Source: an uncultured Eubacteriales bacterium (GTDB lineage Bacteria > Bacillota > Clostridia > Oscillospirales > Acutalibacteraceae). From it: 41,546 nt of DNA. The position numbers and the translations under genes were made by a program. The notes below the pieces were generated by a model. That model worked only from the letters and a program-made list of their open reading frames with translations. It ran no database searches and was not told the origin of the DNA. The stretch spans positions 1 to 41,546 of the forward strand of contig ONID01000004.1 of assembly GCA_900317765.1 (NCBI GenBank), written 5' to 3'. Of the stretch, positions 4,333 to 27,433 are shown in pieces. How positions within the stretch are numbered: position 1 is the stretch's first letter; each line of letters opens with the position of its first letter.

Positions 4333-5718
4333 TTACCATCTGCATTCATCGGCACACTTCCGAACGCACTGCTTCATATCTTCCGGAATCAGATTCACTT
4401 CGTCAAAATAACCCGCGTAGACATTCGGGCTGTCCTTGTATCTGGCATAGGCGGGTGTGGACATGTAATATTCCAGCAGACAGGGCAGCGGCTCGCCCCT
4501 TCCCAGCCGCTTGGAAATGGCAAGGCACATGGCGAAATTCACTTCGTCCACGCTGCCGACACATTCAAACGGCTTGGATTCGTGCAGTCCGATCAGCTGC
4601 TCAAAATATGTTTTCATTTTCTCGTTCTTGGAATTCAGCAGATTGATGCGGAATATGTCCTTGATCTCATCGTCCGTGAGAAACGGAGAAAGAATCATCG
4701 TGACAAACAGGCACTTGGAACACTCCAGACACCATGTGTCGAATTTGGTTCCGGCGTTGCCCGCGTTGCAGCTGCGGAATACCGGGTGGTACTCTTTCAG
4801 TCCCGCAAATATCGCGGCGATCTGTATCTCGGAAAGCGGACGCAGCAGACTGAAATAGCTGACTCCGCAGGGGATGTATTTTTTCAGGTATTCAGCGAAG
4901 TCACTTTCGAATTCAAAGCTCTTGGAATACTGGTGGTTGACGTCGCTGCCCGCAACAGAGGCTTCATTGGCGCTGGATTCATTGGACAGCACGACGTATT
5001 TCTTTCCGCAGACATACGCCGACAGCGAAGCGGCAAAGGCAATCAGCGCCGACAGCGGCGTGTGCCCGTTGAGGAAGCCCTGTTTGTTCAGCTCGACGAT
5101 CGTTCGGTCGAGGGTTCTCTTGGGACGGTAGATTTTTTCGGGACGGTAGCCCGCAAGCATAGCCGACGCGAAGGCGGAGTTTCTGTGATTCATCATGAAG
5201 CACATATTGTCGTCGGTATGTCCGTACCTTGACAGCACATGCAGCGACACGATGGAATCCTTCCCGCCGCCGACAGGAATCATACATCCGCTTAATTGTT
5301 TGTCTGCGGATATAGTGAGCTTTTTTTCAATACCCGCGGTTTCGATGTTCATGAAGCGGTTGATGTCGGTGTCCACGCCATTGGTGTAGAAGAATTCGCC
5401 GAGTCCGTGATAATACAGCTTCTTCCACCATGCGATCTGGTCGTCGCTCAGATATCCGCATTCCACACGGACACGGGGTGAACAGGCGGCTTTCCAGTAG
5501 CTCACAAGCTCTACCATTCCCAAAGAAAAGACGAATTCCTCAAAAACCGGGTCTTGCGTGTCAATGCCATCCTTCGGAAAGACCCAGACGGGGTGAAATT
5601 CCGTAAGTCCCACCGTTTCGAAAGAATAGACAATTCTGATCCCTTCTTTCGACGGGGTAACATCGTACCCGTGATAGACGAATTCGGGGTATTTTGCGAT
5701 AAGCTCTTTATAATCCAC
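4333..5718 (-). CDS. PP-loop ATP-binding protein, candidate MurL-type epimerase
   Basis: 461 residues. A PP-loop, PVGGGKDSIVSLH, lies at residues 148-160, marking an ATP pyrophosphatase-fold enzyme that activates a carboxylate by adenylation. A Cys cluster (WCLECSKC) follows near residue 335. Overall size and the position of both motifs recall MurL, the enzyme that epimerises the terminal L-Glu of UDP-MurNAc-L-Ala-L-Glu in peptidoglycan precursor synthesis in some bacteria lacking the usual D-Glu route. That assignment is from memory of the family and is moderate; a general PP-loop ligase or amidotransferase is the alternative. The start is GTG with AAAGGAG 9 nt upstream. No murD homologue is adjacent, so context neither supports nor refutes it. 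Confidence 0.55.
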   Translation of the reverse strand: MDYKELIAKYPEFVYHGYDVTPSKEGIRIVYSFETVGLTEFHPVWVFPKDGIDTQDPVFEEFVFSLGMVELVSYWKAACSPRVRVECGYLSDDQIAWWKKLYYHGLGEFFYTNGVDTDINRFMNIETAGIEKKLTISADKQLSGCMIPVGGGKDSIVSLHVLSRYGHTDDNMCFMMNHRNSAFASAMLAGYRPEKIYRPKRTLDRTIVELNKQGFLNGHTPLSALIAFAASLSAYVCGKKYVVLSNESSANEASVAGSDVNHQYSKSFEFESDFAEYLKKYIPCGVSYFSLLRPLSEIQIAAIFAGLKEYHPVFRSCNAGNAGTKFDTWCLECSKCLFVTMILSPFLTDDEIKDIFRINLLNSKNEKMKTYFEQLIGLHESKPFECVGSVDEVNFAMCLAISKRLGRGEPLPCLLEYYMSTPAYARYKDSPNVYAGYFDEVNLIPEDMKQCVRKCADECRW

Positions 5719-6695: not shown

Positions 6696-7766
6696 TCACG
6701 GCAGAAAATCGCGCAGTTTCTTGCTGCGGCTGGGATGTCTGAGCTTTCGGAGTGCCTTCGCCTCGATCTGTCTGATTCTTTCCCGTGTCACGTTGAATTC
6801 GGCTCCGACTTCCTCGAGCGTGTGATTGCGTCCGTCTACCAGTCCGTAACGCAGTTTGAGAACCGCCATCTCCCGCGGTGTAAGCGTATAGAGAGCACTG
6901 TCGAGCTGTTCCTTGAGCATACTCAGTGAAGCTGCGTCCTCCGGGTCCTCCTGCGTTTCGTCTTTGATGAAGTCCCCTATGTGGCTGTCTTCTTCCTCCC
7001 CTACCGGTGCTTCCAAAGACACAAGATCCTGCGATACGCGCATGATCTCCACAACTTTTTCCTCCGGCATGTCGGCGTAATCGGCAATCTCGGAAGTGGT
7101 CGGATCCTTGCCCTTTTCGTTGAGCAGGTGGCTCTGCGCCTTTTTGACGCGGTTGATATTCTCGACCATGTGAACCGGAATTCTGATGATTCTCGCCTGG
7201 TCCGCAATGGCGCGGGATACCGACTGACGTATCCACCATGTGGCATATGTCGAAAACTTGAATCCCTTGGAAGGATCGAACTTTTCCACGGCTTTGATCA
7301 GCCCTAAATTTCCCTCCTGAATGAGGTCAAGCAGCGGCATGCCTCTGCCGAGATAACGCTTGGCTATGCTGACCACCAATCTGAGATTGGCTTCACATAG
7401 GCGCTTTTTGGCACTGTCGTCGCCTTCGGATATGCGGCGTGCGATATCTTGCTCTTCTTCAGGGGTAAGCATTTCTACCTTGCCTATTTCTCTAAGGTAC
7501 ATTTTGACAGGATCGTCAATCAGGCTGCCGTCAAAGGCCTGTCCTTCTTCGCCGGAAGAAAGCTCTTCGAATGACTCGTCGGCCACGCTGTCCTCCACGA
7601 TCTGAATCCCGTTTTCCTCCAATTTGTCATAGAGCTTTTCGATCTGTTCGGGACTGAAATTGATTTCGGTGAGCGCGTCAAGTATTTCCTGGTTGCTGAG
7701 GCTGCCTTTTTCTTTTCCCTTCTCAACGAGCCTGCGAAGCGTTCCTTTTTTATCTGTCGTGTTCAT
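6696..7766 (-). CDS. rpoD: RNA polymerase sigma-70 factor, RpoD paralogue C
   Basis: 356 residues with every group 1 sigma segment: a short region 1.1-like domain (1-60), region 1.2 (VKMYLREIG), region 2 ([12 protein letters not shown] to YATWWIRQ), region 3 ([19 protein letters not shown]) and region 4 with the -35 helix [18 protein letters not shown]. In region 2.4 it reads [15 protein letters not shown] where the housekeeping form is [15 protein letters not shown], so the residue matching E. coli Thr440, which reads the -12 base pair, is Ser. Its C-terminus ([13 protein letters not shown]) is the most canonical of the three. The start has AAGGAGG at 8 nt. It is separated from copy B by 96 nt with no clear promoter or terminator. 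Confidence 0.95.
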
Positions 7767-7862
7767 TGCTATTCCCTCCTTCTATCGAAAAATCATGTGC
7801 TTTCAGTAATGCAAGCGCTAAAAGGATTATTGAAAAAGCCGTTATGAAATTCAGTGCAAGGC

Positions 7863-8921
7863 TCAATATGTATAACCATTGAGCTTGCTTCTGCGTGTAA
7901 ACTGTCTGAGCTTGCGCAGTGCCTTAGCCTCGATCTGTCTGATGCGTTCGCGGGTGACGTCGAAGCGCAGTCCCACTTCCTCGAGAGTGTGGCATCTGCC
8001 GTCAACCAGACCGTACCGCAAGCGGATCACTTCCGCTTCACGTTCACTCAGTGTCTCCAATACCTCTGAGATAAGGTCGTGCAGCATCATATTGCTGACA
8101 ACGTCTTCCGGCGCCGCCTGCACCTCGTCTTTGATGAAGTCACCCAAATGACTGTCCTCTTCTTCGCCGATCGGCGTTTCCAGTGAGACAGGCTCCTGGG
8201 AAATGCGGATGATCTCACGCACCTTCGCCTCGTCCATATCCAGCAGTTCAGCAATGTCCTCGGGGCGCGGTTCCTTCTCGTTCTCGGCAAGAAGCTGCGC
8301 CTTGGCACGCTTTACTTTATTTATGTTTTCCACCATATGTACCGGTATGCGTATGGTTCTGGACTGGTCGGCAATGGCACGGGTGATGGACTGCCGTATC
8401 CACCAGGTAGCGTAGGTCGAAAAACGGAATCCCTTTGTGGGGTCGAATTTTTCCACCGCCTTGATCAGACCTAAATTGCCCTCCTGGATCAGGTCGAGAA
8501 AGGGCAGACCGCGGTTCATATATCGTTTGGCTATGCTGACCACCAACCTGAGATTGGCGTCGCTGAGACGTTTTTTGGCGCTTTCGTCGCCCTCGGCAAT
8601 GCGGCGGGCAATGTCCTGTTCCTCATCGTGCGTCAGCATTTCTATGCTGCCTATCTCTCTGAGGTACATCTTGACGGAATCGTCTACCAGCACTTCGTCG
8701 CTGCCTGTATCGGACGACATATCTTCGATGACGTCCTCCAGCGAATCCTCGACGATCTCTATTCCGTTGGCCTCTAACTTGTCGTAAAGTTTTTCCAGCT
8801 GCTCCGGACTGATGTTGACGTCCGCCAGCGTGTCCATAATTTCTCTGTTGCTCAGGCTGCCCTTGGACTTGCCTGATTCAACGATTTTGCGAAGTGTTTC
8901 CTTCTTTTCGGATGTGCTCAA
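7863..8921 (-). CDS. rpoD: RNA polymerase sigma-70 factor, RpoD paralogue B
   Basis: 352 residues, complete regions 1.1 to 4.2. The start is TTG with a very strong GGGAGGGG site 6 nt upstream; the nearby ATG runs straight into a stop. Residues 1-119 resemble copy C ([42 protein letters not shown]), while residues about 130-340 resemble copy A ([51 protein letters not shown]). Region 2.4 is [15 protein letters not shown], with the key Gln and Thr kept. The C-terminal tail ([13 protein letters not shown]) departs from the canonical HPSRS. It lies 46 nt after copy A and so is surely co-transcribed. Confidence 0.95.
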
Positions 8922-8967
8922 TTACATCCCCTCCCTTTCGTTTCCCTCGGTGAGCATAAACAAAAAA

Positions 8968-10068
8968 TTATGTAAAGCCTTTGAGCTTGCTGCTTCGTGT
9001 GACGTGTCTGAGCTTGCGAATCGCCTTGACCTCGATCTGTCTGATGCGCTCGCGGGTGACGTCAAACTGCTTGCCGACTTCCTCGAGGGTGTGGCATCTG
9101 CCGTCTTCCAGTCCGTAACGCAGACGGATGACCTCCGCTTCGCGCTCGGTGAGCGTGTCGAGTACGTCGGAAATGAGGTCGTGGAGGATCATATTGCCCA
9201 CTGCGTCTTCCGGGGCTGCCTGTACCTCATCCTTGATAAAGTCGCCCAAATGGCTGTCCTCTTCTTCGCCGATAGGCGTTTCGAGAGAAACCGGTTCCTG
9301 AGAAATACGGATGATCTCGCGCACCTTCTCGACGTCCATGTCCAGAAGAGCTGCGATTTCCTCCGGACGGGGTTCCTTTTCGTTTTCGGCTGTCAGCTGC
9401 GCCTTGGCACGCTTGACTTTATTGATTGTTTCCACCATGTGAACGGGTATGCGAATCGTTCTCGCCTGGTCTGCGATGGCTCTTGTAATCGCCTGACGGA
9501 TCCACCATGTCGCATAGGTGGAAAATTTGAAGCCCTTGCTCGGGTCGAATTTCTCAACAGCCTTGATGAGTCCTAAATTGCCCTCCTGAATGAGATCGAG
9601 AAATTGCAGACCGCGGTTCATGTACCTTTTGGCGATGCTGACCACGAGTCTGAGGTTGGCTTCGCTGAGTCGCTTTTTTGCCTCTTTGTCGCCCGCCATG
9701 ATTTTTTCGGCAAGCTCCTTTTCCTCCTCGTTGGTAAGCAGCGTGATCTGTCCTATGTCCCTGAGATATGCCTTGACAGGGTCTTCGATGTAAACGCCCA
9801 TTGCTTCCGCATCGTTGTAGTAATCGTTGGGTCGTTCATCGTCGTCGTTCTCGTTGACTTCCAAGGACTCAATGGAAATATTGTCATCCAAGTCCTCAAT
9901 GATCTCTATGTCCATGTTGTCCAGTCGCATAAAGAAGCTTTCAATTACATCGGGATTTACGTCGACGTCGGCTAATGCATCCATTACTTCCTGCTGGGAA
10001 ATGCTTCCCTTTGCCTTTGCCTTTTCGGCTAATTCCTTGAGAATTGATTTTGCGTTTGTTACTGCCAT
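8968..10068 (-). CDS. rpoD: RNA polymerase sigma-70 factor, RpoD paralogue A
   Basis: 366 residues from ATG 10068. Region 2.4 ([20 protein letters not shown], residues 182-201) is identical in pattern to the housekeeping sigma of Firmicutes, so this is the best candidate for the vegetative factor. An acidic spacer ([15 protein letters not shown]) precedes region 1.2, longer than in copies B and C. Region 4.2 is [18 protein letters not shown], but the tail [12 protein letters not shown] differs from the usual [12 protein letters not shown]. It follows dnaG, the classical position of rpoD. An in-frame TTG at 10080 is disfavoured because the AAAGG site would be too close. The 102 nt gap to dnaG holds a perfect palindrome (10136-10157). 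Confidence 0.96.
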
Positions 10069-10135
10069 GTGTCTGATCAACCTTTCGTTGCATTGGGTAT
10101 GTGCTTTGTGTGTTTGCTTAATCTATGTCAAATCG

Positions 10136-10170: not shown

Positions 10171-11922
10171 TCAGCTCTTTTTCTTGCGGAGAATGCTCAT
10201 TTGTTTGAGCAGCTCGTCCGATGTGAGCTTTGCCGCTTCCTGCGGTTTGGGTGTGAAATGGGCGCTTCGGATGACGTCAATAAGAGTGTTGAAGTCTCCC
10301 GCTCCGACGGAGTCGTCGCTGTTGATGATCTTGACGATCTCGGATATCTCCGTTTCGCTGAAATGAGGCGTCAGCAGTGAAACGCTGACCTCCTGACCGG
10401 ATTCGTGCAATTCGATGAATTGGGTATAGATTCTGCGTCCGAAATCGGTGACAAACTGTTCCGGAGGCAATTCTTTTGCCGCTGCGGGAATCTTGTCCTG
10501 ATGCCTGAAAAGTATGGAAATCAGGGCGTATTCGGCATTGGACGCCTTGAGGTTGGCGCTGCGTTCGGGATTTACCTTGCTGCCGATGCCTGCGGTGTTT
10601 TTTGCCATTTCCCGGAATTCCTGTTCCTTTTCCGCCCGGATTCTCCTGCGTGCCGATGCGTCCGCCTGGCTGAGCACCGCGGTTTTCTCGATGCCGAGCC
10701 TGTCCGCAATGCGTCCCGCGTAGACCTCGCGCTCGAGTGTGCCGAGACTGCTGAGGTATTCGCAGACCTCCCTGAGGTAGTGCAGCCTGCCGTCGTCGGT
10801 GGAAATGTCGAATTTGGACGCTATGCGCATGATGCTGTATTCGATGTCGTTCGTGCAGCCGTCGAGCAGCAATTTAAAACGCTCGGGACCGTATTTTTTG
10901 ATAAATTCATCGGGGTCCTTCGCGCCCGTAATTTGCAGCACCCGGACGTCCAGTCCTTCTTCCTTCATGATGGGAATGGAACGGGCGATGGATTTCTGTC
11001 CCGCCTCGTCTCCGTCCTGGGAAAGCACCACGCGGTCGGCGTATTTGTGAAGCACGCGTGCCTGCTGCGGCGTCACGGCTGTTCCGAGAGCCGCCACGGC
11101 ATTTTCAAAGCCCGCCTGATGAAGGGCGATGACGTCCATATATCCTTCGCAAAGGATCAGCTCCCGGGTTTTGCAGTTTTTGGCAATGTTCATGGCAAAA
11201 AGATGGTTGGTCTTCTTGTAGATGAGGGTGTCGCTTGTGTTGACGTACTTGCCGCCCGCAGCGTCTTCGGTAAACCGCCTGCCGCCGAAGGCCACCACAT
11301 TGCCCTGCAAATCGATGATCGGAAACATCACCCTGTTGCGGAACCGGTCGATCACACCGCCTTTGCGGGAGGAATATCCGAGATCGGCGGCGAGAATCTC
11401 GTCCCGCTTGTATCCCAGTTGCTCCAGATGACGCGACAGCAGATCCCAGCCGTCAGGCGACCAGCCTAATCCGAAACGTCGGATGGTTTCATCGGTCAGC
11501 CCGCGGGAATGGAAGTATTCCAGCGCTTTTTTTCCCGCAGGAGAGTATAACGAACGATAAAAGAATCTGCCCGCTTCGCGGTTCTGCTCACGTATCCGCA
11601 GCCGCATATGCGACAGCCCGTCGTTTTTCCCCTCCTCGGGAATGGCAATTCCTGCGCGGTTGGCAAGAAACTTGATGGCCTCGACGTAATCGAGGTTTTC
11701 AATCCTCCGGATGAAGCCGATCACGTCACCGCCTGCCTGACAGCCGAAGCAGTAAAAGGACGCCGTATCGGAATATACCGTAAAAGATGGCGTTTTTTCG
11801 GAGTGAAAGGGGCACAGCCCCTTGGAATTGCGCCCGCTCCGCTTGAGCGAAACATATCCGCCGATCACATCGGTGATGTCATTTCTTTCCTTGACTTCAT
11901 TAATAAATTCCTGCGAAAGCAA
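10171..11922 (-). CDS. dnaG: DNA primase
   Basis: 583 residues. The zinc-binding domain is clear (CPFHSEKTPSF and YCFGCQAGGDVIGFI), followed by the RNA polymerase core with TOPRIM motifs (LCEGYMDVIALHQAG; VVLSQDGDEAGQKS) and a C-terminal helicase-binding domain. DnaG lays down RNA primers at the fork with the DnaB helicase. I set the start at TTG 11922 (LSQEFINEVKERNDI, matching the family N-terminus) because AAAGGAG lies 7 nt upstream of it; the ATG at 11952 would put this ribosome site inside the gene. It lies between dgt and the sigma genes, the classical macromolecular-synthesis arrangement. Confidence 0.97.
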   Translation of the reverse strand: MLSQEFINEVKERNDITDVIGGYVSLKRSGRNSKGLCPFHSEKTPSFTVYSDTASFYCFGCQAGGDVIGFIRRIENLDYVEAIKFLANRAGIAIPEEGKNDGLSHMRLRIREQNREAGRFFYRSLYSPAGKKALEYFHSRGLTDETIRRFGLGWSPDGWDLLSRHLEQLGYKRDEILAADLGYSSRKGGVIDRFRNRVMFPIIDLQGNVVAFGGRRFTEDAAGGKYVNTSDTLIYKKTNHLFAMNIAKNCKTRELILCEGYMDVIALHQAGFENAVAALGTAVTPQQARVLHKYADRVVLSQDGDEAGQKSIARSIPIMKEEGLDVRVLQITGAKDPDEFIKKYGPERFKLLLDGCTNDIEYSIMRIASKFDISTDDGRLHYLREVCEYLSSLGTLEREVYAGRIADRLGIEKTAVLSQADASARRRIRAEKEQEFREMAKNTAGIGSKVNPERSANLKASNAEYALISILFRHQDKIPAAAKELPPEQFVTDFGRRIYTQFIELHESGQEVSVSLLTPHFSETEISEIVKIINSDDSVGAGDFNTLIDVIRSAHFTPKPQEAAKLTSDELLKQMSILRKKKS

Positions 11923-11980
11923 GCGATAACTCCTTTCTTTATGACTATTCATTATTCATTTAGCGAGCGAACGCGAGCGC

Positions 11981-13024
11981 TCAGGTGTCCCATCCTTTGG
12001 GAATGAAGATGTCTTTGTAGAGTTCGACGGCGTAGGTGTCGCTCATGCCGGCGATAAAGTCGGCGACGGCGCGCTTGATGCCGTCATCCCGCATGATCTG
12101 GCGGTATTCGCCGGGAACCTTGGCGGGATGGTTGCAGAGATAATGGAAGAGAATTTCGATCATGTCCTCCGCCTTGCCTTCTTCGGCTTTGGCTTTGCTG
12201 CCCTTGTAGACGCTGCGGTAGAGAAAATCGTGCAGCTCGTAGAATGCCTTGGAAAACTCCTCCGACATGCCGATGTTTCCTTCCGGGCTGTTCTGGTATA
12301 CGTTGAGGATCATGTTGTTGATGCGCATGGAACTGCCTGTGCCGAGAATTTCCCGGAGATGTGCAGGAATATCCTGCTCACTGAGAATGCCTGCGCGTAT
12401 GCTGTCGTCGATGTCGTGATTCATGTAGGCGATCTTGTCGGCAATGCGCACGATTCTGCCCTCCGGGGTGAATGCCTCGGGACCTTTGGTGTGACACTGG
12501 ATGCCGTCGCGCACTTCTTTGGTGAGGTTGAGTCCCTTTCCGTCGTTTTCCAGCTTTTCCACCACGCGCACGCCCTGTTCATAATGCCTGAATCCGCCGT
12601 AGGAAGCAAGCATGATGTCCAGCACTCTCTCGCCGGCATGTCCGAACGGCGTGTGCCCGAGATCGTGTCCCAGTGAGATCGCTTCCGTGAGGTCTTCATT
12701 CATCCGCAGCGCACGCGCAATGCCCCTTGCGATCTGCGCAACCTCGAGCGTATGAACCAGTCTTGTGCGGTAATGGTCGTTGCCGGGAGCGAGATAGACC
12801 TGGGTCTTGTGCTTCAGTCGCCTGAACGCCTTGCAGTGAATGATCCTGTCCCTGTCGCGCTGAAAGACCGTTCGCATTCCGCAGGGAGGCTCCTTGCGGT
12901 CCCGTCCGAGTGAATGGCAGGAAAGCGTGGCAAAAGGCGAAAGCGTCATCTTTTCGAGCATCTCTGTCTGTTCCCGGATGCCTAAGCTTTTATCCAGCAG
13001 GCAGCCTCTTTCAGAATCGTTCAT
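11981..13024 (-). CDS. dgt: dGTP triphosphohydrolase-like protein (HD domain)
   Basis: 347 residues. The HD metal site is visible: RLVHTLEVAQIARGIAR, then LGHDLGHTPFGHAGE, then the later Asp of YMNHDIDD. The N-terminal RDRDRIIHCKAFRRLKHKTQV block is typical of deoxyguanosinetriphosphate triphosphohydrolase-like proteins, which cleave dNTPs to deoxynucleosides and triphosphate. The start follows AGGGGG at 7 nt. It is the first gene of the dgt-dnaG-rpoD unit; a TATAAT at 13072-13077 upstream has no clear -35 partner. The N-terminus lists 30 extra residues before the conserved core, as in Clostridia homologues. Confidence 0.94.
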   Translation of the reverse strand: MNDSERGCLLDKSLGIREQTEMLEKMTLSPFATLSCHSLGRDRKEPPCGMRTVFQRDRDRIIHCKAFRRLKHKTQVYLAPGNDHYRTRLVHTLEVAQIARGIARALRMNEDLTEAISLGHDLGHTPFGHAGERVLDIMLASYGGFRHYEQGVRVVEKLENDGKGLNLTKEVRDGIQCHTKGPEAFTPEGRIVRIADKIAYMNHDIDDSIRAGILSEQDIPAHLREILGTGSSMRINNMILNVYQNSPEGNIGMSEEFSKAFYELHDFLYRSVYKGSKAKAEEGKAEDMIEILFHYLCNHPAKVPGEYRQIMRDDGIKRAVADFIAGMSDTYAVELYKDIFIPKGWDT

Positions 13025-13854: not shown

Positions 13855-14304
13855 ATGCTTAACAGACGTGAATCAAGGCAACAGGCATTTGAATTTATTT
13901 TTGAAAAATCATTCAACGGCAACGATCCGGAGGAAATTCTCCGCAATGCCGGTGAAGCGAGAGACACGGAGATTTCAGACTACGCCAGAGAGCTTCTCAG
14001 CGGCGTTTATGCACACACGGAGGAAATTGACGGTTACATATCGACCTATTCGGTCAAGAGAAGCATCCGCAGACTGTCAAAGGTGGTTCTTGCCGCACTG
14101 CGGCTTGCCATGTATGAAATTCTTTATGTCGAGGATCTCGACGCCACCATTTCCATCAACGAAGCGGTGGAGCTTACCAAAAAGTTCTCGGGCAGGGACG
14201 AATCGGGATATGTCAACGGCGTGCTCGGCGGTTTTCTCAGGGCCTATGAAGCGGGAGACATCACCAAGCCGCAGCAGGAAGCCTCCGAAGGTGAGGCTCA
14301 ATGA
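13855..14304 (+). CDS. nusB: Transcription antitermination factor NusB
   Basis: 149 residues, all helical in character, with the family landmarks MLNRRESRQQAFEFIFE at the start and LAMYEILYVEDLDATISINEAVELTKKF near the centre (split here only for description). NusB binds boxA RNA with S10/NusE and aids rRNA antitermination and processing. The start has GGAGG 6-7 nt upstream. It overlaps the next gene by ATGA, so the two are translationally coupled. The acidic C-terminal tail (QQEASEGEAQ) is extra. Confidence 0.96.
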   Translation: MLNRRESRQQAFEFIFEKSFNGNDPEEILRNAGEARDTEISDYARELLSGVYAHTEEIDGYISTYSVKRSIRRLSKVVLAALRLAMYEILYVEDLDATISINEAVELTKKFSGRDESGYVNGVLGGFLRAYEAGDITKPQQEASEGEAQ

Positions 14305-15239
14305 GCCGCATCTTAGGCATTGACACAAGCAATTACACCACTTCCGCGGCGCTGTATGACACCGGCGCAGGCGAGATTGTCCAGAGCAAAATGCTGCTTC
14401 CTGTCAAGCCGGGTGAAAAGGGCGTCCGTCAGAGCGACGCGGTATTCCACCACACGGCGCAGCTTCCGCAGGTGATCGCTTCCCTTAAAGAAAAATGCGG
14501 AGGTTTTGAAGGAATCGACGCCATCGGCGTTTCCACCCGTCCGAGGAGTATAGACGGTTCCTACATGCCTTGCTTTACAGTGGGCTCCGGAACGGCGCGG
14601 ATACTGTCGGATGTTCTCGGCGTACCGCTCTTTGCATGCAGTCACCAGGAGGGACACATCGCCGCTGCGCTCTATTCTTCCGGCAGGATGGACCTGATGC
14701 AGGGCAGATTCATTGCCTTCCATGTGTCAGGCGGCACAACCGAGGCCCTTCTGGTCAAAGGCAGCGGAAAGGGCTTCTCGGAAGAGCTGATCGCTTCGTC
14801 GCTCGATCTGAAGGCGGGACAGGCAATTGACAGAACGGCTGTCATGCTGGGACTCCCCTTCCCCGGCGGGATTCACCTCGAAAGACTCGCTCTCCAATGC
14901 GGCGACGTCATCAGATACAAGCCCGCCATGAAGGGCTGCGACTGCTGCCTTTCCGGCATTGAAAACAAATGCTTAAAGCTGCTGAGCGAGGGCGCTTCCA
15001 AGGAATACATCGCCAAATTCTGCCTTACGGCGGTAATGAATTCCATTATGAGCATGACCGACGCTATTCTGGAAGCATACGGCGAGCTGCCGATCATTTA
15101 CGCTGGAGGGGTCATGTCCAACGTCATTATGAAGCGTGAGATTTCATCGAGATACGCGGGCGCGAATTTTGCCGCTCCGGAATTTTCCTGCGACAACGCG
15201 GCGGGAGTCGCTGTTCTTGCGGCGGCGGATATTTTATAA
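14301..15239 (+). CDS. M22/TsaD-like ASKHA-fold protein
   Basis: 312 residues. It has the phosphate-binding start ILGIDTSNYTTSAALYD, the metal-type HQEGH (His115 and His119), SGGTTE and a C-terminal AGGVMSN and CDNAAG, all matching the M22/TsaD (Kae1) architecture. It is shorter than usual bacterial TsaD (about 340) and has SGGTT where TsaD has SGGHT/S, so it looks like the TsaD paralogue found in this operon position in Clostridia rather than the t6A synthase subunit itself. No tsaB, tsaC or tsaE is nearby. Whether it modifies tRNA or has another role is open. It overlaps nusB by 4 nt. Confidence 0.8.
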   Translation: MSRILGIDTSNYTTSAALYDTGAGEIVQSKMLLPVKPGEKGVRQSDAVFHHTAQLPQVIASLKEKCGGFEGIDAIGVSTRPRSIDGSYMPCFTVGSGTARILSDVLGVPLFACSHQEGHIAAALYSSGRMDLMQGRFIAFHVSGGTTEALLVKGSGKGFSEELIASSLDLKAGQAIDRTAVMLGLPFPGGIHLERLALQCGDVIRYKPAMKGCDCCLSGIENKCLKLLSEGASKEYIAKFCLTAVMNSIMSMTDAILEAYGELPIIYAGGVMSNVIMKREISSRYAGANFAAPEFSCDNAAGVAVLAAADIL

Positions 15240-24043: not shown

Positions 24044-27000
24044 ATGGAAGGTACATCAAAAAAAGACGTTAACAGCTTAGTTGCATCTTTGATGAACGAC
24101 GCTTACGAAAAAAACGGCAAGCTGCTTTTCATTAAATACAGTAATACATTCACCATCAAGTATGAAGACGTGCTCGTTGCCTCCAACGATAATGAGAACG
24201 CGGTTCAGACGCTCTACCACGAATTCAAGCCCGGCATGATGCAGTCGGCATATGCTCCGCTGATGGACTGGATCGGAGCGCTTTACAAGCGTTATTTTTC
24301 AGAAATCGACTACGCGACTTTTTTGGCTGACTGCGATGTCTATCCATTGCATATCAATGTCTTCAAGACTTATTTTGAATGCGGTACCTGCCGCAGAGTG
24401 GAGACTATCGTCCGCAATGAAGCTGAATTTGAACATAAGCAGTTCATTTCCGACATCATCAAGATATTCAATACGATTGCCGACAACATTCCTCTGCTGA
24501 TGATCTTTGACAATCTGCAATACTGCGAGAAGTCTCTTCTCGAATTCCTGGAAAAACTCACCCACACAAGCACCGAGAAGCATTTTTCCGTGCTTGCCGA
24601 CTTCAATGAGAAGTACGAGGTTCATGAGTACATTCAGGATACGTGGGACCTCTTCTCCAGGCGCATCGAGACAAAGAACATGATGCTCTACTGGGAATTT
24701 GACAGCATGATCGTCTCGGATAACCGTCATATTCCTTTTGTCCCTGACAAGGCCTTCTTTGCTGTCTATCTGATCATGCTCAACAACATGATCAACACCC
24801 TCTCACTCGATCAGGCGCTGATGTATTTTGAGGTCATCCGCGCAAAGCTCGAGTCAGGCGACATGTTCGTTACGGCAAAGGAAAGATATATTTTCTACAA
24901 TATCTACGGCAACGCGCATTTTCTCCGCGGCGACTACGACGACGCCATTGAAATGAGCGAGATCATGCGGGGCATTTACATCACCAACAAAGACCTGCAT
25001 GAAATCAACTACGAGTACAATTTCAACGAACTGGCTTGTCTGGCCAACATCTACGATCGCAACGAAGCCAAGGCGATGGATTACGTTCTTGAATGCAAGC
25101 GCATTGCCTACGGCAGCGGCGACGGCTTCCTGATGTTCCAGGCTGACCTGCTGCGATACAAGGCCATGATGAGAGGCTGGGACAGAGATTATCTCGTTTC
25201 GGCATTCGGTATTTCCTACGAAATCGACAACGACTTCCTCTCCCTTGCGCGGAAGTACGAATACATGAACAACTTAGCCTATGTGGTTGCGTTCGGCTAC
25301 GGCAACGACCAGACCTTCTACCGGGATTCTCTCAATTACTGCGAGAGCCGCGAACACGTCGTTACAAGCACCAATATTGCCAAGGAGCTTAAAAACGACT
25401 ACCTGCTGCTTCTCATGTGGGAAAAGCACATCCGATTTACCATCCGATACGGCTACTTCAACGTTGCCGACTACTACTACAAGTGTCAGCTCAAGGTCTA
25501 CAAGCAGAATGACAACATGCGTGAAGCCGGCATTATCTACAACGGTCTGGGCTACAACCGAATCATCATGGGTCACTACAACTACGCCAGTGACTTCTTC
25601 AATTCCGCCATCGACGTGTGGTACAAATTAGGCTTCGCTGATGAAATCGGTATGACGCTTTACAACATGGCCATCAATGAGATTCTCATGGACGAATACA
25701 GCGTGGCCATCGAAATGATTACCACTACCATCCGTATCATGAAATACCTCGACCAGATCAACCTCAAATACTGTAACATGTCCAAGCTCTATGGTATGTT
25801 GGTCTACTGCAACTACAAACTGCACATCGAATACAACGCACAGTTCTATCTCAACAAAATGGAGTACATCCTTCATCACCTCCTCTTCCCCGAAGGAACT
25901 CCCGATTACACCGCGTGGGACAACGAACTCTTCCTTTTCTACATTACCAAAGCACTGCTGATGAAGAAATCCGATCCCGACGAAGCCCAGCGACTGTTTG
26001 ACAAAGCCAAGTATCACATGGAACGCGCCGATGACCTGTACTTCTTCGTATACATGATCTTCGCCATTGAGCAGGCCGCCTTCTATAAAGAAAAGGGCGA
26101 TATGGACAACTTCAAGAAGGTGCTCAACAAGTGCATCGATCACTTCAAGAAGCACGGCTGCAACGAAAAGGCTGACAGACTCTTTGCCATCCTCAACAAC
26201 AAGAACGTTGTCACCAAGAAAATCGGTTCCGGTCTGAAGAAAATCACATCCTTCCAGCTGATCGAACTGGCCCGCCGCGTCGGTTCCGAAATGGAGCTTG
26301 ACAAGCAGAACAAGAACATCCGCTTCCTGTCGTCCTGGCAGAAGCTGATGAACAGCGACACGGTCGAAAACGTGCAGGCACTTTACCAGAAGTCAGTCAA
26401 GCTGATCAAGCGCAATTTCTGTGTGGACAATGTCCTTATGTTCTCCATGAACGGCGAGGAGGTTGTAACCGATTACACCGAGAAAAATACGGACATCAGC
26501 GCTTTCCGGATCAACAGCATTGTGGATTTCTTCAGAAATCCACAGCAGGCGTTCGTTATTACACGAACGGAAAAGAGATTCTACGACTATTCCAGGTTTA
26601 TCAGCAATTTCGGCATCAATGAAGTCTTCTCGATACTCTGCGTGCCGATTTATGAAAAAGAACAGCTCACCCACCTCTTTATCGGGTATGTTACATCTCA
26701 TGACAACTTCGTCCACAACTATGACCTGCTCGATGAAGACGATCTGAACATACTCAAATTCACGTTCCGTCAGCTCATTGATTCCACACGCCGACTCCAG
26801 GCACGTCTCGAAATTCAGGAAATGAATGCGAAGCTCGAAAAGACTTCGGTGACGGATATGCTGACCGGACTGCTTAACCGTCAGGGCTTTGCCAAGTATC
26901 TTGACGAGGAATTTGACAAGTTGGCAGCCAAGAAGAGAACCCGCGAGATACCGACGACCGTTCTCTACATCGACCTCGACAACTTCAAATTCTACAACGA

Positions 27001-27433
27001 TAACTTCGGTCATGATATCGGCGACGTTCTGCTGGTCTCCTTCTCCAAGCTTTTCAAGGACATTGTAGGCGAAAAGGGTTACAGTGTGCGCTACGGCGGC
27101 GACGAATTCCTTGTCATTCTGCCCGATGCCGATGAAAAGGAAGGCGAAAAAGTCGCAAAGGCGATCTACAAGAAACTGGATGATTCCAATGGCTTTGAGG
27201 GTGAAATCAAAGCCAAGATGGGTCACGATTTCGAGGTTCCCAAAAACAGAAGGGTGAATTGCTCCATCGGCATTGCCACCTCTGAGGAAGCAAGCATGAC
27301 GGCAGTCTCCGAAGCCTTGAAGTGTGCCGACAGTGCGCTTTATGTGGTCAAAAAGTCCACAAAGGGCGACTACAGAATCTACCAGGGCGAAAGCCGTGAA
27401 GACGCAGGAAAACTGCAAAAAAAGAGAGCATAA
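24044..27433 (+). CDS. Large soluble diguanylate cyclase with pseudo-STAND and TPR-like regions
   Basis: 1129 residues with no membrane segment. The first 200 residues resemble a degraded STAND/AAA_16 ATPase: SAYAPLMDWIGAL (68-80) recalls the post-P-loop 'pYaPl.e.l' segment and LLMIFDNLQYCEKSLLEFL (151-169) recalls Walker B and its helix, but no Walker A exists. Residues about 260-730 are Tyr-rich helical pairs of TPR type. Residues about 770-925 look like a GAF domain (ILCVPIYEKEQLTHLFIGYV). The GGDEF domain begins at about 934 (SVTDMLTGLLNRQGF) with an intact GGDEF at 1018-1022; no RxxD inhibitory site precedes it. It should make cyclic di-GMP in response to a signal bound by the upstream modules. 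The ligand is unknown. Single-gene unit with own promoter and terminator. Confidence 0.88.
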   Translation: MEGTSKKDVNSLVASLMNDAYEKNGKLLFIKYSNTFTIKYEDVLVASNDNENAVQTLYHEFKPGMMQSAYAPLMDWIGALYKRYFSEIDYATFLADCDVYPLHINVFKTYFECGTCRRVETIVRNEAEFEHKQFISDIIKIFNTIADNIPLLMIFDNLQYCEKSLLEFLEKLTHTSTEKHFSVLADFNEKYEVHEYIQDTWDLFSRRIETKNMMLYWEFDSMIVSDNRHIPFVPDKAFFAVYLIMLNNMINTLSLDQALMYFEVIRAKLESGDMFVTAKERYIFYNIYGNAHFLRGDYDDAIEMSEIMRGIYITNKDLHEINYEYNFNELACLANIYDRNEAKAMDYVLECKRIAYGSGDGFLMFQADLLRYKAMMRGWDRDYLVSAFGISYEIDNDFLSLARKYEYMNNLAYVVAFGYGNDQTFYRDSLNYCESREHVVTSTNIAKELKNDYLLLLMWEKHIRFTIRYGYFNVADYYYKCQLKVYKQNDNMREAGIIYNGLGYNRIIMGHYNYASDFFNSAIDVWYKLGFADEIGMTLYNMAINEILMDEYSVAIEMITTTIRIMKYLDQINLKYCNMSKLYGMLVYCNYKLHIEYNAQFYLNKMEYILHHLLFPEGTPDYTAWDNELFLFYITKALLMKKSDPDEAQRLFDKAKYHMERADDLYFFVYMIFAIEQAAFYKEKGDMDNFKKVLNKCIDHFKKHGCNEKADRLFAILNNKNVVTKKIGSGLKKITSFQLIELARRVGSEMELDKQNKNIRFLSSWQKLMNSDTVENVQALYQKSVKLIKRNFCVDNVLMFSMNGEEVVTDYTEKNTDISAFRINSIVDFFRNPQQAFVITRTEKRFYDYSRFISNFGINEVFSILCVPIYEKEQLTHLFIGYVTSHDNFVHNYDLLDEDDLNILKFTFRQLIDSTRRLQARLEIQEMNAKLEKTSVTDMLTGLLNRQGFAKYLDEEFDKLAAKKRTREIPTTVLYIDLDNFKFYNDNFGHDIGDVLLVSFSKLFKDIVGEKGYSVRYGGDEFLVILPDADEKEGEKVAKAIYKKLDDSNGFEGEIKAKMGHDFEVPKNRRVNCSIGIATSEEASMTAVSEALKCADSALYVVKKSTKGDYRIYQGESREDAGKLQKKRA

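Follow-up and report, generated by a model that had tools for sequence, protein, structure and literature searches.

The 41,546 nt contig ONID01000004.1 (C80; the window is this one entire contig) belongs to the 2.9 Mb draft genome of an uncultured Eubacteriales bacterium of the family Acutalibacteraceae (244 contigs, 86.5% complete) and carries three rpoD-type sigma factor genes, designated s1, s2 and s3, side by side after the primase gene dnaG. Sigma factors are the proteins that direct RNA polymerase to start sites, and most bacteria are thought to depend on a single primary sigma factor. Comparison with related genomes indicates that the middle gene, s2, is a chimera, with regions 1.1-1.2 from s3 and regions 2-4 from s1, and no copy reaches the cut-off of the full-length RpoD model. 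We give about an even chance to an account in which rpoD was duplicated in tandem, its unmodified form was lost, s2 was made by a crossover, and the resulting group-1-type sigmas would share housekeeping transcription in parallel. The evolutionary part of this account is strong, and the division of labour is one that we infer.

The genes at the locus lie on the minus strand in the order dgt, dnaG, s1, s2, s3, a phosphoesterase gene and a MurL-like gene (Table 1). A preliminary description of this DNA had reported three adjacent full-length rpoD-type genes of 366, 352 and 356 codons, placed where a single rpoD is usual (dgt-dnaG-rpoD) and all keeping core-binding and -35 motifs; their coordinates and lengths are borne out by the Pfam regions and the RpoD C-terminal model, the gene order was confirmed, and the motifs are indeed retained. 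Absent from that description were the recombinant origin of s2 and the failure of every copy to reach the canonical RpoD cut-off. Regions 1.1, 1.2, 2, 3 and 4 score above the Pfam cut-offs in s1, s2 and s3 alike, with 48.6, 53.2 and 58.4 bits, respectively, for region 1.1 (PF03979, cut-off 22.5), and all three pass the RpoD C-terminal model TIGR02393 (cut-off 354 bits). In a three-sequence alignment, s2 and s3 are 72% and 61% identical to s1. The spacers within the set are 46 and 96 nt, and such small distances suggest that s1-s2-s3 may form one operon; internal promoter-like or terminator-like sites were no more frequent in the sigma set than in shuffles. The mechanical list of open reading frames (ORFs) starts s1 at a TTG (position 10080), versus the ATG start that gives 366 amino acids (aa).

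Evidence for the hybrid nature of s2 comes from 43 diagnostic alignment columns, in which s1 and s3 are each fixed yet different, and s2 is fixed too, over nine three-copy genomes of the genus. Through residue 104 of s2, 13 columns are s3-type, 1 is s1-type and 1 is neither, and from residue 136 onwards 22 are s1-type, 5 are s3-type and 1 is neither. The best two-block split of the 41 usable columns was equalled in 3 of 100000 shuffles, or in 31 of 100000 when three s3-type columns that represent one neighbouring gap were omitted. Trees of the two parts show the same division. With residues 1-111, s2 joins s3 (support 98/87), as sister to the s3 of an 11-genome subclade (90/82), and with residues from 128 it joins s1 (100/99.9), where the approximately unbiased (AU) test rejects a grouping of s2 with s3 (p=0.0016). 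Judged by eye, s2 and s3 appear to have putative ribosome-binding sites of the same GGAGGG type, with a different leader in s1, which would be in line with inheritance by s2 of the 5' flank of the downstream copy. A plain duplication of s1 as the source of s2 is rejected on the part trees and on the two blocks of diagnostic residues. Unequal crossing-over within an s1-s3 tandem would yield exactly the order s1, s3-5'/s1-3', s3. It is formally conceivable that a pre-existing middle copy was instead gene-converted by s3, but unequal crossing-over would account for copy number, order and hybrid together, in a single step.

The genus set comprised 18 genomes, that of the window included, and the congeners are draft genomes. 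Two or three PF00140 matches were found in 16 of the 17 congeners (17 of 18 with the window genome); G016, at 78% completeness and in 400 contigs, has none. All 16 congeners that have the locus show the order dnaG, s1, (s2), s3. A genome in 244 contigs invites the suspicion that the array is an assembly artefact or contamination, but the probability of this is negligible, as 16 further members of the genus show the same order and orthologous copies; chance and misassembly are rejected because the identical order recurs in separate genomes. The copies form orthologous clades in a 69-row tree, with 17 rows of s1 (100/100), 17 of s3 (100/99) and 9 of s2 (100/99). Locus L060 was dropped from the row set, having no sigma row above 200 bits, and neither the row set nor the trees include L081 and L082, since these appear to duplicate G011 and G017.

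Full-length s2 is found in nine genomes, all inside one 11-genome subclade of the dnaG plus dgt tree (100/99). The remaining two members of this subclade are G002, with only a 5' remnant of s2, and G012, with a truncated middle gene that was kept out of the s2 group in the diagnostic-column and later analyses. In G002, the gap between s1 and s3 aligns to the start of s2 (ribosome-binding site and initial codons) from each of four congeners, with a score that beats 2000 of 2000 shuffles every time, narrowly so for G014. From the subclade, the remnant and the truncation, it is most likely that s2 was gained once and afterwards lost or broken twice. The s2 slot of G012 (L052 7298-8083) holds a fast-evolving ORF of 262 residues with regions 1.1, 1.2 and 2 and no region 3 or 4 match, which may be either a pseudogene or a truncated sigma-like protein.

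The proposed history would run in two steps. A single dnaG-linked rpoD would have been duplicated in tandem at the base of the genus, giving rise to s1 and s3, with the unmodified copy not kept. Later, and in a single subclade, s1 and s3 would have recombined by unequal crossing-over to give the third, middle gene, in which the ribosome-binding site and regions 1.1-1.2 of s3 are fused to regions 2-4 of s1.

No canonical RpoD was found among the genus copies scored against the full-length RpoD model NF006666 (cut-off 572). The window copies miss it (s1, 527.3; s2, 495.7; s3, 520.4), as do nine further copies from four congeners (497-532), so that all 12 genus copies tested fall below (496-532). 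Among 14 relatives that are single-copy at the locus, 13 score above the cut-off (582-647) and one, L067, below it (567). In the five genus genomes at 98% completeness (G003, G006, G007, G009 and G017), the PF00140 genes are the tandem copies only, and no RpoD above cut-off was found in near-complete congeners. Since the copies miss the RpoD cut-off and these five genomes hold no other PF00140 gene, housekeeping transcription is most likely shared among the diverged tandem copies. By domain content the three proteins resemble group 1 sigmas, all having regions 1.2, 2, 3 and 4 and the RpoD C-terminal domain, and also region 1.1, which group 2 sigmas lack and which is confined to group 1 according to the available part of PMC4598750.

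Purifying selection acts on each copy. Median ratios of nonsynonymous to synonymous divergence (dN/dS) over nine genomes are 0.033 for s1, 0.019 for s2 and 0.036 for s3, compared to 0.079 for dnaG (34, 29, 26 and 36 of 36 pairs, respectively, with finite dS), and although dS is saturated, and the ratios are therefore rough and good to an order of magnitude only, they indicate that this selection is strong. Within genomes, synonymous distances between copies are at least 1.75 or beyond estimate in eight of the nine three-copy genomes; G005 has lower values (0.85-1.10). These observations bear on an alternative of dosage or redundancy, in which the copies are interchangeable and just increase the supply of sigma. 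Retention of the presumed -10 and -35 contact residues in every copy would fit such a dosage effect, and so would the variable state of the genus, in which members have two copies, three, or a truncated middle copy. We nevertheless regard it as unlikely, given that residue differences between copies are fixed or nearly so across species, that the high synonymous distances in eight of nine genomes argue against homogenization there, and that every copy is a separate constrained clade.

To locate the differences, positions at least 90% conserved in a comparison set of 98 rows (97 distinct, two being identical) with a single copy at the locus were scored, a departure being a change common to 80% of a clade; where a row comes from a public contig, a single copy at the locus is no proof that the genome has no other. 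Departures in s1 number 12/55 in region 4 and the tail, 5/109 in regions 2-3 and 3/18 in region 1.2; the corresponding figures are 13/55, 9/109 and 6/18 for s2, and 3/55, 9/109 and 4/18 for s3. The s1 departures are concentrated in region 4 and the tail (p=0.0017), and the regional contrast between s1 and s3 gives a Fisher p of 0.025, which becomes 0.009 once positions altered in every copy are set aside, these statistics taking positions as independent. Residues are numbered here as in E. coli K-12 RpoD in the alignment. At 438-440, all 98 comparison relatives have A, I and T, the positions at which s3 is altered (Table 1), and A438S is common to s2 and s3. Just ahead of the finger, s3 has T509A in 15 and I511V in 14 of 17 rows. 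P601V and S602T are found in 17/17 rows of s1, P601F and S602T in 9/9 of s2, and s3 retains the ancestral tail. R584, E585, R588, Q589, W433, W434 and Q437, which we take to be -10 and -35 contact residues, are invariant across all copies, and s3 has S at position 440.

The surface of region 4 and the tail is contacted by the polymerase flap, by activators and by anti-sigma factors, and phage anti-sigmas bind region 4. It could be supposed that the changes in s1 and s2 sustain transcription when s3, with its ancestral-type region 4, is captured there by an anti-sigma factor of phage or cellular origin, in keeping with the concentration of s1 changes and the ancestral tail of s3. Such an escape has, in our estimate, very little probability: the changes are fixed genus-wide (mean identity of the s1 C-part over nine genomes, 97.3%), not fast-changing as an arms race predicts.

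In the favoured account, all three genes would be produced as group-1-type sigmas, probably from one operon, with s1 presumably the most abundant, and would form parallel housekeeping holoenzymes with overlapping promoter sets, as the base contacts for -10 and -35 appear to be retained. The copies differ in the module for the DNA-channel gate and the discriminator (1.1/1.2), in the -10 edge (2.4) and pre-finger residues of s3, and, for s1 and s2, in the surface of region 4 and the tail; the holoenzymes would most likely differ in these features and in their region 4 partners. Channel gating and discriminator reading are the roles ascribed to regions 1.1 and 1.2 in the available part of PMC4598750. 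Extending this, we tentatively suggest, at somewhat less than even probability, that there is no single housekeeping sigma in the genus, and that two or three co-made and reciprocally diverged group 1 proteins divide the reading of promoters. On this view s3 would combine an altered -10 edge with an ancestral region 4, s1 and s2 would combine an ancestral -10 reader with an altered surface of region 4, and the hybrid s2 would carry the gate/discriminator module of s3.

Expression level may also separate the copies. The codon adaptation index (CAI) in the window is 0.564 for s1, 0.503 for s2 and 0.470 for s3, and s1 exceeds s3 in 17/17 genomes, the direction between s2 and s3 varying; the weights, applied to all genomes, come from a few ribosomal-protein genes of the window genome, L2 being the only one identified with a family model. 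Upstream of s1 is a conserved leader (AACGAAAGGTTGAT), the core of which, GAAAGGTTGA, is present in 17/17 genus genomes (Table 1), with no flag in any row from outside the genus among those listed in the comparison. The leader has a single exact copy in the genome and two copies with one mismatch, and the backward control gave one match. It hints at a separate translational setting for s1, and might be an unusual ribosome-binding or control site. In the rows measured by eye, the GAAAGG of the GAAAGGTTGA leader stops 11-13 nt upstream of the s1 start codon. No structured RNA leader from Rfam was detected in the window, where the Rfam matches are two tRNAs only. The preliminary description had suggested a switchable set of vegetative sigmas co-made with primase, perhaps sorted by level, core affinity or promoter preference, and for level and promoter preference such sorting appears plausible from the CAI order of s1 and s3 and the clade-wide differences in promoter-facing and region 4 residues.

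Alternatively, the true housekeeping sigma could be a single copy, most likely s1, and the others condition-specific, group-2-like factors that have retained region 1.1. The codon usage of s1 is the most ribosomal-like of the three in the window genome, s2 can be lost, and additional RpoD-like sigmas serve as stress factors in other bacteria, as described in the available part of PMC4598750. This arrangement seems improbable to us, as region 1.1, a group 1 feature in that same source, is present in all three, the genes are closely spaced with promoter-like sites not above shuffles, and s1, too, falls short of the RpoD cut-off and is altered in region 4.

Several points weigh against shared housekeeping by a duplicated and recombined set. 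Because the congeners are draft genomes, a canonical rpoD may have been left unassembled in them, although we consider this unlikely. For the hybrid, the AU test on the N-part fails to reject a grouping of s2 with s1 (p=0.147), and the s1-like part has 5 s3-type columns among its 27 usable diagnostic ones. The middle gene is dispensable in some species, as the G002 remnant and the G012 truncation indicate. As to divergence in function, departures in s3 show no regional concentration (p=0.75), and its T440S substitution (16/17 rows) is a mild one. To these are added the saturation of dS, the narrow basis of the CAI weights and the assumed independence of positions, given above with the respective values.

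Two other possible roles or sources were considered. A stand-in for missing sporulation sigmas is unlikely because SigG, SigK-subfamily and SigF-like proteins are present in the genome. SigG scores 414.9 bits with NF006071 (cut-off 372) and below the cut-off of TIGR02850; the SigK-subfamily protein is above its cut-off and the SigF-like protein below its cut-offs. The scan covered 4 of the 18 other region 2 matches of the genome, the fourth of which matched no family at the limit used. A phage source found no support in a tblastn search of s1 against phage records, as all 89 records matched were below 80% identity. Only 2 of the 89 cover at least 80% of s1; the first listed has 58% identity over 99%, and the other four listed have 67-72% identity over 75-80%.

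Outside the genus, a first look at 19 genomes of the same family gave one match in 15, none in three, and two on different contigs in G022. The nearest outsiders are single-copy at the locus, for example Anaeromassilibacillus (68% identity to s3). Wider surveys, by PF00140 searches only, took in 394 genomes of the order and 391 of the class (17 rows common to both besides that of the window genome, G000), and neither sample includes another member of the genus. In the order sample, 36 genomes have two matches (the second weak in G177 and G404) and only the window genome has three. In 21 of the 36, representing ten genera, the two matches share a contig and are no more than about 2 kb apart, and dnaG precedes the pair in all 16 that were fetched (L057, L058 and L170-L183, covering all ten genera). 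In a tree of these tandem pairs, at least g57, g58 and g114 are supported as independent duplications, besides that of the window genus; the pairs of g88, g181 and g183 look alike in the tree, with long branches and a bootstrap that is not settled. The pair in G387 has short branches and looks recent. In G163 (L175 3665-4843), the first copy is split into two adjacent ORFs, perhaps through decay of the gene or a sequencing error, and is a single ORF in the relative G304. The class sample contains 23 genomes with two PF00140 matches, counted regardless of placement, and one besides the window's with three, G663, where they are dispersed over the contig. No tandem triplet was found outside the genus by these searches in either sample; the triplet is therefore seen solely in the window genus, while dnaG-linked pairs recur. 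The preliminary description had proposed looking in relatives for dnaG followed by at least two rpoD, an arrangement now found in 16/17 congeners and, as tandem pairs, in ten other genera, and had named wide occurrence of the triplet with a published role as grounds for abandoning its reading; the triplet was seen in this genus only, and the portions of the open-licence literature covered contain no report of tandem rpoD in Clostridia.

Table 1. Features of the sigma locus in the window (contig ONID01000004.1).
Feature	Position	Strand	Basis
s1, rpoD-type sigma, 366 aa, ATG start, first after dnaG	8968-10068	minus	Pfam regions; RpoD_Cterm, 381.5 bits
s2, rpoD-type sigma, middle copy, 352 aa, TTG start	7863-8921	minus	Pfam, five regions; RpoD_Cterm, 368.3 bits
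s3, rpoD-type sigma, third copy, 356 aa, ATG start	6696-7766	minus	Pfam, five regions; RpoD_Cterm, 374.3 bits
s3-derived part of s2, residues 1-103 (region 1.1, spacer, most of 1.2)	8613-8921	minus	diagnostic columns; N-part tree
Crossover zone (predicted), s2 codons 104-136	8514-8612	minus	last N-terminal s3-type residue, 104; first of mostly s1-type run, 136
s1-derived part of s2, regions 2-4	7863-8513	minus	diagnostic columns; C-part tree
C-terminal part of s1 (region 4 and tail), residues 290-366	8971-9201	minus	12/55 family-conserved positions changed
s3 codons 182-184, region 2.4, A438S, I439V, T440S	7215-7223	minus	15, 16 and 16 of 17 s3 rows
s1 leader AACGAAAGGTTGAT, core GAAAGGTTGA	10076-10089	minus	core present in 17/17 genus genomes
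Putative ribosome-binding site of s2, s3-type	8928-8935	minus	by eye
Putative ribosome-binding site of s3, AGGAGGGA	7773-7780	minus	by eye
dnaG, primase, upstream of the sigma set	10171-11952	minus	TIGR01391, 405.6 bits (cut-off 283.6)
dgt-type dGTP triphosphohydrolase, upstream of dnaG	11981-13024	minus	NF002327, 482.8 bits (cut-off 393)

Some other genes of the window are also worth recording. The MurL-like protein (UDP-MurNAc-peptide epimerase family; 4333-5718, minus strand) scores 233.8 bits, below the cut-off of 700. Its relatives in G003, G005 and G017 are close to the locus, and those of G003 and G017 lie on the far side of dgt. A TsaD/Kae1-like protein (14301-15239, plus strand) has 117 bits against a TsaD cut-off of 296, and is perhaps a diverged paralogue. 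A protein of 1129 residues (24044-27433, plus strand) carries a C-terminal GGDEF (diguanylate cyclase) domain, and of the 17 NCBIfam matches listed, not one places its best stretch within residues 1-898.

Were the account of a duplicated and recombined set true, the role of the primary sigma factor could be divided, in a genus without a canonical copy. The hybrid s2 would then be a natural domain swap, raising the question of which sigma module governs which property, and the recurrent tandem pairs in ten other genera would be repeats of the same evolutionary experiment.

Among known systems, the closest are the group 1 RpoD/SigA proteins (SigA of Bacillota, sigma-70 of E. coli), which share with the window set regions 1.1-4, the dnaG-rpoD locus and the invariant residues at the presumed -10 and -35 contacts; the window genus differs in having two or three side-by-side copies, those tested being below the full-length RpoD cut-off, and one of them a hybrid. 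Group 2 sigmas, such as RpoS, those of cyanobacteria, and HrdA, HrdC and HrdD of Streptomyces, are likewise RpoD-like paralogues with closely similar recognition regions. Unlike these, which are without region 1.1 in the available part of PMC4598750, the window copies keep it, stand in tandem and have no canonical partner that we could find. More than one rpoD per genome, as here, is reported for Dokdonia (two; PMC3587595) and Fimbriimonas (three; PMC4072686), and the available parts of these sources mention neither tandem placement nor a hybrid. The tandem pairs of ten other genera are pairs only in the genomes seen, lacking the third gene, and, with at least three separate origins, show the same type of duplication at the same locus as the window genus.

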